Shown piece after piece: positions 8,941 to 14,247 of a stretch of 64,000 nt of DNA (the first letter of the stretch is position 1; each line of letters begins with the position of its first letter). A model generated the notes under the pieces. That model worked only from the letters and a program-made list of their open reading frames with translations. It searched no databases and was not told the DNA's origin. The stretch is from Candidatus Thermoflexus tengchongensis (GTDB lineage: Bacteria > Chloroflexota > Anaerolineae > Thermoflexales > Thermoflexaceae). The stretch lies in contig JAEVEX010000066.1 in NCBI GenBank assembly GCA_016842085.1, positions 1 through 64,000 on the forward strand, read 5' to 3'. The position numbers and the translations under genes were made by a program.

Positions 8941-9031
8941 CGGAAGGCGCCATGAAGCTCCCGTGCGGATGAGGTCATGGGGAGGTGGGGTGGGCGGCGA
9001 AGCCACCCACCCCATGATCTCGATCTTACCC

Positions 9032-10555
9032 CTAAATCCCCAGGGGAAGCGGTGGAGAGCCCAGAGAAGCGGCCTCGGTTTCCGGGCGCATGGCCGGAAG
9101 GACCATCAGGGGCCCCAGGCCGCGCTCCAGGGTGATCTGGGCGGACTCAGCAGGCTGCAGGTAGTCCTTGAGCACCTCGATGATCACCTCCGGGTCCGCC
9201 TCCCCGCAGGTGAACACGTCCACCGCCACGTAAGCATACTCCGGCCAGGCGTGCAGAGAGATGTGGGACTCCGCCAGCAACACCAGGGCTGAGAAGCCGT
9301 CCGGGACGAAGCGATGGATCTTCATGTTCAGCAGGGTGGCGCCGGCCCGGCGCACCGCGAGCTCCAGAACCTGCTTGAGGTTCCGCAGGGGCTCCCGATT
9401 CCGGCACTTCCAGAACTCCGCGATCACGTGCCGCCCCAGGGTCAGCTGGGTGGGGAAGGGGGTTGGAGCCGCCGTCATCACCGAGGCCGTGATCGCGGTG
9501 TCCACATCCGGGCTGCGCCACACCTTATCGATCGCATCCTCATCCTCGTAAAGCTCCCGCCCCCCTTCGATCACATAATCCTCCGGCGGCTGGAATTCGG
9601 GCAGGGTTTCCACCCGGAAGAACGTCGAGCGATACCAGGGCACGGGCGAAGGACGGGCGAAGGGCGGAAGATCCGGGATGGGCTGCTCTTCGGGCTCCTC
9701 CCAGTTGGCATAGAGGCTGAAGTCTGGCAGGATGTGAGTGAACGTAATAGCGTGCCGGTTCAGGAGCTCCCGCTGCCAGATGTGCCACTTGCTGATGTTC
9801 GACTCGATACGGGTGATGCCGAAGTAGCCCGCGCGGCCCTCTCCCTTCTTCAGGCACATGAACCCCTTCTCCAGGAACAGCAGAAGGCCATGCTCCGTCT
9901 CGGTCGGATCGGTGAGAAAGGTGTCAAACTGCCCCAGGAGCTCAGGGGGAAGGCGGTCCGTCAGGCTGCGGCAGTAGACCGTGATGTTCAGGCCGGCGCG
10001 GCGAGCGGCCTGCTCGATGAAGGCGCACAGGCGCTGGTCGATCTCAATGACCACGACCGAGCGGGGTAACCCCGTCAGGGCCAGGGCCAGGCTGGCCAGG
10101 TCATCATCCCCCAGCACCACCACATCCTTGCCCTCCACATCCCCCTGGGCGACCATCAGGGCCACCCGGCGCATCACGGAATCGATCGTCTGATAACCCT
10201 GATCGTAAGCCGCCAGAGGCTCAGGGCGCCCCCTGACCAGTTCCTCATAGCGACGGGACACCTCCTGGAAAAATCCCAGGTCGATCCCGGTTCCCTGACA
10301 GGCGAGACACCGAATGTCTGGGGCCACTGCGACATTCAGATCTCGGGCCAGGCGCTGGCCATGCTCGGTCAATTGCAGACGCTTTCCATCGAAGGTCAGG
10401 GCTCCGGCATCCAGCAACTGCTTGATGCCTTCGACCACCCGTGGAAAGGGAAGCCCGGCGGTGCCAGCCGCCTGCCAGGGATCCCCCTCCCGCAGGATCG
10501 CGCGCAGGAGCCGGGCCAGCTCCGAGCGCCCCAGGGTCAGGATCTCCCCCGCCAT
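9032..10555 (-). CDS. Branched-polyamine synthase (BpsA-like) fused to S-adenosylmethionine decarboxylase (SpeD/SpeH)
   Basis: The 507-residue product has two enzymes in one chain. Residues 1-75 form a winged-helix-like domain (IKQLLDAGALTFDGKRLQLTEHG). Residues 80-320 match BpsA (DUF43), which adds aminopropyl groups to spermidine to give N4-branched polyamines: CLAC (83-86), GDDDLASLAL with the signature GDDD (149-152), VVVIEIDQRL, and FLTDPTETEHG (213-223). Residues 345-475 match AdoMet decarboxylase, which makes the aminopropyl donor: LLAESHISLHAWPEY, where cleavage at E429-S430 would form the pyruvoyl group, and VDVFTCG (445-451). AAAGGAGGTG precedes the ATG. A promoter and a structured leader lie upstream. 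Function is inferred from motifs; the fusion itself is directly visible. Confidence 0.88.
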   Translation of the reverse strand: MAGEILTLGRSELARLLRAILREGDPWQAAGTAGLPFPRVVEGIKQLLDAGALTFDGKRLQLTEHGQRLARDLNVAVAPDIRCLACQGTGIDLGFFQEVSRRYEELVRGRPEPLAAYDQGYQTIDSVMRRVALMVAQGDVEGKDVVVLGDDDLASLALALTGLPRSVVVIEIDQRLCAFIEQAARRAGLNITVYCRSLTDRLPPELLGQFDTFLTDPTETEHGLLLFLEKGFMCLKKGEGRAGYFGITRIESNISKWHIWQRELLNRHAITFTHILPDFSLYANWEEPEEQPIPDLPPFARPSPVPWYRSTFFRVETLPEFQPPEDYVIEGGRELYEDEDAIDKVWRSPDVDTAITASVMTAAPTPFPTQLTLGRHVIAEFWKCRNREPLRNLKQVLELAVRRAGATLLNMKIHRFVPDGFSALVLLAESHISLHAWPEYAYVAVDVFTCGEADPEVIIEVLKDYLQPAESAQITLERGLGPLMVLPAMRPETEAASLGSPPLPLGI

Positions 10556-10634
10556 CGTTCACCTCCTTTCCCCGGAATGTGATCGGCGCCCTCCGGCGCC
10601 GGAAGGGAAACGGCTCCGCACGCACCGTTCCCTA

Positions 10635-12489: not shown

Positions 12490-12768
12490 GGCGGCCGTGC
12501 TCAGGCGGGGAGGTGGCGGTTCCCTGAACCCGAAATCCGCCAGACGCGGGGCTGACACCCCCTTCGAGGGTTAGCGCGGCCCCACCAGAGGATCCCTCCC
12601 GGTGATGAAGGTCCGGTCCTGCGCGGCGGACCCCGGTGAACCCCGCCAGGCCCGGAAGGGAGCAACGGTAAGCCGTCCCGGTTCGCGCGCCGCAGGGGTG
12701 CCGGGCCGGAGCCGTCCGAGGGATCGCCGGTGGGGAGAGGCGGGCTCGACAAGGGGCGCACGGCCGCT
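12490..12768 (+). ncRNA. ffs: Signal recognition particle RNA, large bacterial form
   Basis: The ends pair over 10 bases (GCGGCCGTGC 12491-12500 with GCACGGCCGC 12758-12767). The 5' Alu-type domain reads GCTCAGGCGGGGAGGTGGCGGT, as in the Bacillus-type scRNA. The Ffh-binding helix 8 appears at about 12644-12680 with CAGGCCCGGAAGGGAGCA and its GGAA loop. The length of about 279 bases fits the large form with an Alu domain, rather than the 4.5S form. TTTTTCGTTTTT follows and acts as a terminator. It guides the membrane-targeting pathway with Ffh. Confidence 0.93.
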
Positions 12769-12807
12769 TTTTCGTTTTTGAGGTCTCCAGGTTCCGCGCT
12801 CGCTGCA

Positions 12808-14247
12808 ATGAACCGATGGACGTTTCTCAAATGGATCGCCTGGCTGGGGCTGGGCACTTTCTGCCTCTGGGGTTACTGGCGCTCTCAACAGACCGTAACC
12901 ATCCTCCTCGATGATCGCCCCTTCTCCATTAGAACCCATCAACGAACGGTGGGAGATGTGCTTCGGGAGGCGGGCCTGACGCTGCGTCCGGAGGATATGG
13001 TTTCCCCGCCCCTCACGCACACCATCCGGCCCCCGGCGACGATCTGGATCCGACGGGCCAGACCGGTTCAAATCCTGATCGAAGGGCGTGGGGTCGAGCC
13101 TTCCCGTCAGATCCAGCTTTACACCCTTCAGTCTGATCCCCGGGCCATCCTGGCGGAGGCCGGGATCACCCTGAGGGCAGGGGATGGGTTGTGGGTCGAT
13201 GGCCAGCGAAGGGAGGCGGGGTCTCTCGCGCTCGACGGCGGGCAGCCTCCCCGGGAGATCCGGGTCGTGCGGTCCGCCCCGCTGGTGGTGCGTCTGGAAA
13301 ACGGAATGCGGCGGGTGATCTGGTCGACCGCGCCAACGGTGGGAGCGGCACTGCGCGAGGCGGGCATGCCCCTGGACCCGGGGGATCGGCTGCTGCCCGG
13401 GCCGGAAACGCCCCTCGATGGAGGTATGCAGGTCTCTCTGTTCCGTGCCCGACCTATCACTGTGGAAGCCGATGGACGTATCCAGGTGGTCTCCACCACG
13501 GCGCGCACGGTCCGGGAGCTGTTGTGGGAGCTGGGGATCTCATTGCATGGCCAGGACCGGGTGATCCCGGAAGAGGGAAGCCGCCTCCAGGGCGGGGAGA
13601 CGGTCCGGGTGATCCGGGTGGCGGAAGGATTCGAGATCGAGGAAACTCCGGTTCCTTTTCAGACCGTATGGGAGCCCGATCCCAACCTGGAGCTGGATAC
13701 CTGGGTTCAGAAATCCCCCGGCCGGAACGGCGTGCTTCAGCGGCGGATCCGGGTGCGTTATGAGAACGGGCAGGAGGTGGCGCGGGAAGTCGTCGATGAA
13801 ACGATGATCCGGCCTCCGGAGCCCCGGGTCTGGGTCTACGGGACGAAGATCGTGGTGCGCACGCTGGAGACGCCGGATGGGCCGATCGAATACTGGCGGC
13901 GGATTCGCATGCTGGCCACCTCCTACAGTCGCTCCACGGCAGGGGTTCACCCATCTGCGGCGTATTTCGGTCGCACCCGGACCGGGCTGCCCATGCAGCG
14001 AGGGATTGTGGCGGTGGATCCGCGGGTGATCCGGCTGGGATGGAAAGTGTATGTGCCGGGTTACGGGGTGGGTCTGGCCGCTGATACCGGCGGCGGGATC
14101 ATCGGCCGCCGCATTGATCTGGGGTATGACGATGAGGATCTGGTGCTCTGGTATCGCTGGGTGGACGTCTACCTTCTGACTCCGGTTCCTCCTCCGGATT
14201 CGATCCCCTATATTCTGCCCGACTGGCCGACCCCACCCTCGCCTTAA
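12808..14247 (+). CDS. YabE-like cell-wall protein: DUF348 repeats, G5 and 3D domains
   Basis: The 479-residue product has an N-terminal membrane anchor or signal (about 5-22). Ubiquitin-like DUF348 units follow, each with a T-VGDVLREAGLTL-type core (about residues 45, 110, 175 and 235). A G5-type segment covers about 275-345 (IEETPVPFQTVWEPDPNLE, GQEVAREVVDETMI). A 3D domain closes the protein: ATSYSRSTAG, GIVAVDPRVIRLG, LAADTGGGIIGRRIDL with conserved aspartates. Relatives act on peptidoglycan. ATG 12808 is used. It follows the SRP RNA terminator by about 30 bases. Confidence 0.88.
   Translation: MNRWTFLKWIAWLGLGTFCLWGYWRSQQTVTILLDDRPFSIRTHQRTVGDVLREAGLTLRPEDMVSPPLTHTIRPPATIWIRRARPVQILIEGRGVEPSRQIQLYTLQSDPRAILAEAGITLRAGDGLWVDGQRREAGSLALDGGQPPREIRVVRSAPLVVRLENGMRRVIWSTAPTVGAALREAGMPLDPGDRLLPGPETPLDGGMQVSLFRARPITVEADGRIQVVSTTARTVRELLWELGISLHGQDRVIPEEGSRLQGGETVRVIRVAEGFEIEETPVPFQTVWEPDPNLELDTWVQKSPGRNGVLQRRIRVRYENGQEVAREVVDETMIRPPEPRVWVYGTKIVVRTLETPDGPIEYWRRIRMLATSYSRSTAGVHPSAAYFGRTRTGLPMQRGIVAVDPRVIRLGWKVYVPGYGVGLAADTGGGIIGRRIDLGYDDEDLVLWYRWVDVYLLTPVPPPDSIPYILPDWPTPPSP

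Follow-up and report, generated by a model that had tools for sequence, protein, structure and literature searches.

A gene on the minus strand of the window (the whole 64,000-nucleotide stretch of Candidatus Thermoflexus tengchongensis DNA analyzed here) joins two polyamine enzymes in a single chain, a branched-polyamine synthase (BpsA) and, behind it, an AdoMet decarboxylase (AdoMetDC, SpeD). Both domains are complete and their catalytic residues are intact. Judged from its sequence, the protein is very probably bifunctional and carries out the final stage in the synthesis of branched polyamines. Each of the joined enzymes is well known; the unusual point is that the carrier arm of BpsA leads straight into a hinge to the decarboxylase.

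Domain architecture and catalytic residues

The open reading frame runs from an ATG at 10555 to 9032 on the minus strand and comprises 507 codons and a stop (9032..10555; assigned from the reading of the ORF, Pfam and NCBIfam matches and homologues), and the plus strand of the same interval is interrupted by stops. The initial annotation, which left the strand unstated, had given the coordinates and length exactly, and the single open frame that it described through both domains is also intact in independent genomes. A strong Shine-Dalgarno sequence read directly from the DNA, AAAGGAGGTG (10560..10569, minus strand), lies four bases 5' of the ATG. The gene stands alone. The ORF 3' of it is convergent and histidine-kinase-like, and the one upstream, which shares its strand, resembles a TrmH-type methyltransferase; both are named from a reading of their translations. 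Between the gene and the convergent ORF is a 13-bp hairpin (8986..9014; fold z -3.2), a possible terminator shared by the two, which has no T run and is missing from the list of the terminator scan. No riboswitch or known RNA was found at the gene at curated thresholds, and the matches below threshold look like chance hits on the G+C-rich hairpin.

The BpsA half, whose coordinates like those of all the features of the protein given below are on the minus strand, consists of a winged-helix-like N-terminal part with a C83-x-x-C86 pair, delimited by alignment and model (residues 1-97; 10265..10555), and the BpsA_C catalytic domain (residues 98-341; 9533..10264), which is matched by Pfam with an E-value of 4e-67 and by structure. 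Its nearest solved protein by sequence is Thermococcus kodakarensis BpsA (Tk-BpsA; E 2e-73, residues 13-341). In Tk-BpsA the GDDD motif binds the aminopropyl part of decarboxylated AdoMet (dcAdoMet), and BpsA (branched-chain polyamine synthase, EC 2.5.1.128), whose products are N4-branched polyamines, works in two steps, in which the aminopropyl group of dcAdoMet passes to acidic residues of a flexible C-terminal arm and from there to spermidine (PMC12979288). Alignment with Tk-BpsA places GDDD at residues 149-152 (10100..10111) and DPTE at residues 216-219 (9899..9910), and the acceptor-site residues Asp225, Glu259, Tyr290 and Tyr316 of Tk-BpsA correspond to D216, E251, Y282 and Y308. The arm is represented by ELYEDED (residues 334-340; 9536..9556), in which all five carrier positions are acidic when paired with those of Tk-BpsA through the pattern E-x-x-D-D-E-E, the numbering in the published review being two below a constant offset.

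The SpeD domain (residues 372-482; 9110..9442) is identified by Pfam AdoMet_dc (E 1e-30, residues 376-479), by the NCBIfam adenosylmethionine decarboxylase equivalog TIGR03330 (110 bits against a cut-off of 75.65) and by structure match, and its nearest solved protein by sequence is Thermotoga maritima SpeD (E 2e-24). Alignment equates S430, H435 and C450 (the last at 9206..9208) with T. maritima S63, H68 and C83, the pyruvoyl serine, processing histidine and proton-donor cysteine, the first two lying within ESHISLHAWPE (residues 429-439; 9239..9271). The central-region prolines P418 and P438 are both present, and one of them should be a marker of AdoMetDC. In the class 1b SpeD family the chain cleaves itself before the serine that forms the pyruvoyl group. 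Because this chemistry cuts before S430, with cleavage expected between E429 and S430, the mature protein should consist of two chains, residues 1-429 (BpsA and SpeD beta, ~48.2 kDa) and 430-507 (pyruvoyl alpha, ~8.4 kDa).

Modeling of the protein, a check that the initial annotation had proposed, recovered both predicted folds, BpsA over residues 1-344 and SpeD over 370-484. The model was built on 49 sequences and has a mean pLDDT of 86; an earlier one on 11 close sequences (pLDDT 45) was discarded. Residues 1-344 superpose on Tk-BpsA 5xnc with a Z-score of 42 and an r.m.s.d. of 2.2 over 340 aligned residues, and on Thermus thermophilus BpsA (Tt-BpsA) 6j27 with a Z-score of 39, and residues from about 370 to 484 superpose on T. 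maritima SpeD 1vr7 with a Z-score of about 19 and an r.m.s.d. of 1.7 over 114. Low-confidence stretches are residues 1-4, 360-371 and 481-507. The linker, delimited by the model and the dN/dS segments (residues 346-371; 9443..9520), thus holds a helix (351-359) and a low-confidence hinge (360-371) that is probably flexible in the modeled protein. The model contains one chain, and the relative facing of the two domains in it is not reliable. The initial annotation had read the protein as a BpsA with an intact signature and a complete SpeD with its pyruvoyl cleavage site; Pfam, the fold match and the conserved catalytic residues argue for the first, Pfam, NCBIfam and the Thermotoga fold match argue for the second, and GDDD, DPTE and ESHISLHAWPE all occupy the positions that it gave.

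Occurrence, selection and origin of the fusion

The same domain order was sought in Chloroflexota genomes and was found in 14 others. The full fusion is present in all nine Thermoflexus genomes searched (86-100% identity), in a genome of another family in the same class (G030, 75%) and in five further Chloroflexota MAGs at 45-47%, namely DTUCFX8 (G077, 47%), Bin_34, SJ719, SRR6670122_bin.22 and all_maxbin.084, referred to here as the second fusion group. A contig scan, whose patterns were derived from this fusion group and could miss distant fusions in other phyla, identified these five MAGs by name together with Thermoflexus MAGs, Ca. T. japonica and Ca. T. sinensis among them. When 400 Chloroflexota genomes were sampled evenly, BpsA_C exceeded the cut-off in just 10, three of these being Thermoflexus, and no further fusion was seen; none was found on plasmids. 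The reading in the initial annotation would have been contradicted by an interruption of the frame between the two domains (a stop or a frame change) or by loss of catalytic residues in close relatives; both were looked for and neither was found, the 14 other fused proteins being intact. The identical frame in these genomes rules out a frameshift or assembly artifact, and an apparent internal stop in the G077 copy turned out to be the terminal stop of a 499-residue ORF.

Conservation extends to the individual catalytic residues. GDDD and the four acceptor-site residues do not vary among the 15 fused proteins, of which this is one, or the 11 aligned stand-alone homologues, and the cleavage and catalytic residues of SpeD are intact in every fused protein aligned. 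The carrier arm varies more: all nine Thermoflexus proteins have ELYEDED, in which each of the five carrier positions is acidic; G030 has ELYKDEE, acidic at four of them, and the second fusion group has ELYQDAE or ELYSDAE, acidic at three. Median dN/dS values among Thermoflexus genomes are 0.12 (BpsA), 0.064 (SpeD), 0.06 (linker, over just 26 codons) and 0.22 (tail); those of BpsA and SpeD are low, and both enzymes are therefore being kept under purifying selection.

Each of the five MAGs in the second fusion group (loci L050, L051, L052, L053 and L054) has, directly downstream of its fusion, either one further stand-alone BpsA gene or two. These paralogues retain GDDD and have an altered carrier arm, for example VFYFDAE, which suggests, at the level of sequence, a division of labor or different acceptors.

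In a tree with 27 other SpeD proteins the fused SpeD domains group as a single clade (support 100/97), and the fused BpsA domains form one clade together with the tandem copies (100/100). A single origin of the fused BpsA domains apart from the tandem copies was neither accepted nor rejected (AU p 0.066). An unfused relative, G093, carries bpsA, pdaD, speD, speE and speB in a row, in G248 a bpsA-like gene lies 10 bp from speD, and in G244 (L186, 1535-2682) a bpsA-like gene shares four bases with a SpeD-like gene whose cleavage region is altered (ETSHMCAHSWP). The simplest source of the fusion would be an in-frame joining inside an operon of this bpsA/speD type. In G248 (L184, 2886-4043) and G386 (L185, 2094-3332) GDDD-containing BpsA-like proteins adjoining speD have a Cys-rich, zinc-ribbon-looking C-terminus and no acidic arm. 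If these proteins are aminopropyltransferases, their carrier must differ.

Polyamine metabolism of the host and proposed function

In its own genome the fused SpeD is the sole SpeD found, which supports the proposal of the initial annotation that the second half would be the source of dcAdoMet. The genome also has three arginase-family genes and a separate transferase of the SpeE type, to which 1uir, a polyamine aminopropyltransferase, is the closest relative of solved structure. An agmatinase-scoring gene of the arginase family lies beside potA and two polyamine-type permeases (C73; L192, 3147-7754); its closest solved structures are guanidino-acid hydrolases, and it may process an imported guanidino compound. 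Searches of G000, G004 and G030 turned up neither an arginine or ornithine decarboxylase (PF02784, PF01276, PF01862) nor a carboxyspermidine decarboxylase. With no diamine- or agmatine-forming enzyme of the families searched found in Thermoflexus, the genus may depend on imported polyamine precursors. MAG incompleteness is a caveat on such absences, but G004, a Thermoflexus genome in one contig at 98% completeness, gives the same picture as the genome studied here. The published annotation of T. hugenholtzii lists spermidine/putrescine transporters (PMC8129789). Neither a close SpeE nor an arginase-family match was found in G030, where, with the same caveat of MAG incompleteness, the fusion is the only clear polyamine-making enzyme on the genes identified. 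A search of the open-licence literature found no branched-polyamine measurements for Thermoflexus.

In the scheme that we infer, which covers both activities, the self-cleavage, the product and the benefit of fusion, the C-terminal SpeD would cut its own chain between Glu429 and Ser430, Ser430 becoming the pyruvoyl group, and would then decarboxylate AdoMet to dcAdoMet. BpsA would load the aminopropyl group of dcAdoMet onto the acidic arm (334-340), from which it would be transferred to an acceptor such as spermidine, at the inner nitrogen. The only AdoMetDC of the genome would thereby be tied to BpsA at a fixed one-to-one ratio, and the hinge to the decarboxylase comes right after the carrier arm. 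Because the separate SpeE of Thermoflexus also needs dcAdoMet, we favor a role in which fusion would raise the local supply of the donor and fix the stoichiometry, rather than seal the donor off. Points that weigh against the scheme are the failure to find a diamine- or agmatine-forming enzyme in Thermoflexus, the lack of a close SpeE in G030 and the arm of the second fusion group with its three acidic positions out of five.

The BpsA domain might instead act mainly on another acceptor, such as norspermidine, thermospermine or an imported polyamine, so that the product would not be N4-bis(aminopropyl)spermidine. This reading, which we consider unlikely, differs from the bifunctional enzyme proposed above in the product only and is otherwise compatible with it. 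Tt-BpsA is a generalist, and the arm determines product choice (PMC12979288); G030 is without a close SpeE or an arginase-family gene, and the second fusion group has its extra paralogues with altered arms; against this, all four acceptor-site residues of Tk-BpsA are conserved in the fusion.

Direct channeling, in which dcAdoMet made by SpeD would reach the active site of BpsA with little release, or the arm would swing between the two sites, appears distinctly unlikely. The carrier arm does lead straight to a short hinge ahead of SpeD, the linker is strongly conserved within the genus by the 26-codon dN/dS given above, and in G030 there is no close SpeE to compete for dcAdoMet. The separate SpeE of Thermoflexus and G077, however, must obtain dcAdoMet that has left the sole, fused AdoMetDC, and exclusive channeling in these organisms is therefore unlikely, a partial local advantage being possible. 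The linker is, moreover, not conserved between Thermoflexus and G030 (pN 0.27 against 0.16 for BpsA), its length differs in G077, and the domain arrangement is not modeled with confidence. We regard as a long shot the further idea that arm and linker together would form a swinging arm, loading near the pyruvoyl site and delivering to the branching site, in a self-contained machine leading from AdoMet to branched polyamine that in cells of the G030 type would run on scavenged polyamines alone.

By analogy with Anaerolinea thermophila SpeD2, a SpeD homologue with ornithine decarboxylase activity from a related lineage within the Anaerolineae (PMC10407285), the SpeD domain could be a neofunctionalized ornithine or arginine decarboxylase feeding precursor amines. 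Such a role would fit the failure to find a known diamine- or agmatine-forming decarboxylase in Thermoflexus or G030, but it would leave BpsA and SpeE without any AdoMetDC, and the equivalog score speaks for AdoMet as substrate, as may the two retained central prolines, one of which should be the AdoMetDC marker; we consider it highly unlikely. That the domain could serve only as a structural or dimerization module, like the inactive but needed AdoMetDC-derived domain of human spermine synthase (PMC12803844), is barely credible given its intact cleavage and catalytic residues, its standing as the only SpeD in the genome and the strong purifying selection on it.

Relation to known systems and to thermophily

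The fusion shares with Tk-BpsA and Tt-BpsA the fold of residues 1-344, GDDD, the acceptor-site residues and the acidic arm, but those enzymes stand alone and their arm is a free C-terminus, whereas here the arm continues through the hinge into a second enzyme. With the class 1b AdoMetDC of T. maritima (1tlu, 1vr7) it shares the fold of residues 370-484 and the cleavage serine, histidine and cysteine; that protein is likewise stand-alone, whereas in the fusion SpeD lies at the C-terminus of BpsA and the cleaved beta chain would bear BpsA. Fusions of AdoMetDC with an aminopropyltransferase are known from Pelagibacter, other bacteria and diatoms, and animal spermine synthase carries an inactive decarboxylase (PMC11107197, PMC12803844, PMC10968388). 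In these, too, a class 1b AdoMetDC is joined to an aminopropyltransferase using its product, but the decarboxylase is N-terminal and the transferase belongs to the SpeE family, whereas in the present fusion BpsA is the transferase and precedes the decarboxylase. The double-pyruvoyl SpeD-SpeDC fusions (PMC10407285) similarly hold a self-cleaving SpeD within a larger polyamine enzyme, the partner there being a second decarboxylase rather than a transferase. Among open-licence papers, including the 2026 BpsA review and the SpeD papers, we found no BpsA-SpeD fusion, which thus seems to be undescribed, although both domains may already have been labeled by automatic annotation. There are at least two ways in which AdoMetDC has become joined to an aminopropyltransferase, ahead of a SpeE-type enzyme and behind the unrelated BpsA with its covalent carrier arm, and this hints that coupling the supply of the donor to its transfer brings a real advantage. 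The natural hinge of the fusion makes channeling directly testable.

The initial annotation also took the fusion to mark a thermophile, which is doubtful: hot springs are the habitat of Thermoflexus (PMC8129789), but the protein composition of G077 is mesophile-like. In a GC-frame-filtered comparison that is a rough temperature proxy (~60,000 residues and six tRNAs), G077 gave an IVYWREL fraction of 0.402 and a charged-minus-polar value of 0.036, against 0.401 and 0.027 for Bradyrhizobium mesophile controls and 0.440 and 0.091 for the Thermoflexus genome G004, and its tRNA G+C was 0.614 against 0.704 in G004. An estimate of growth temperature from the longest ORFs was dropped after giving 38 C for hot-spring Thermoflexus. 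No 16S rRNA was found in G077 or G030, and no habitat of the second fusion group was found in the literature. The BpsA review describes bpsA as restricted to thermophiles (PMC12979288), and the second fusion group, if it proves mesophilic, would be an exception.

Two RNA features of the window were seen in addition. Positions 1-732 hold the 3' end of a 16S rRNA followed by a 5S rRNA and a tRNA with no 23S between them, and since the same 16S-5S-tRNA order occurs in G004 (L214, 612-2542), the 23S gene is unlinked in Thermoflexus. A plus-strand large bacterial SRP RNA occupies 12495-12763. Its 3' end reaches into the ORF listed as 12730-14247, the true start of which probably lies further downstream.
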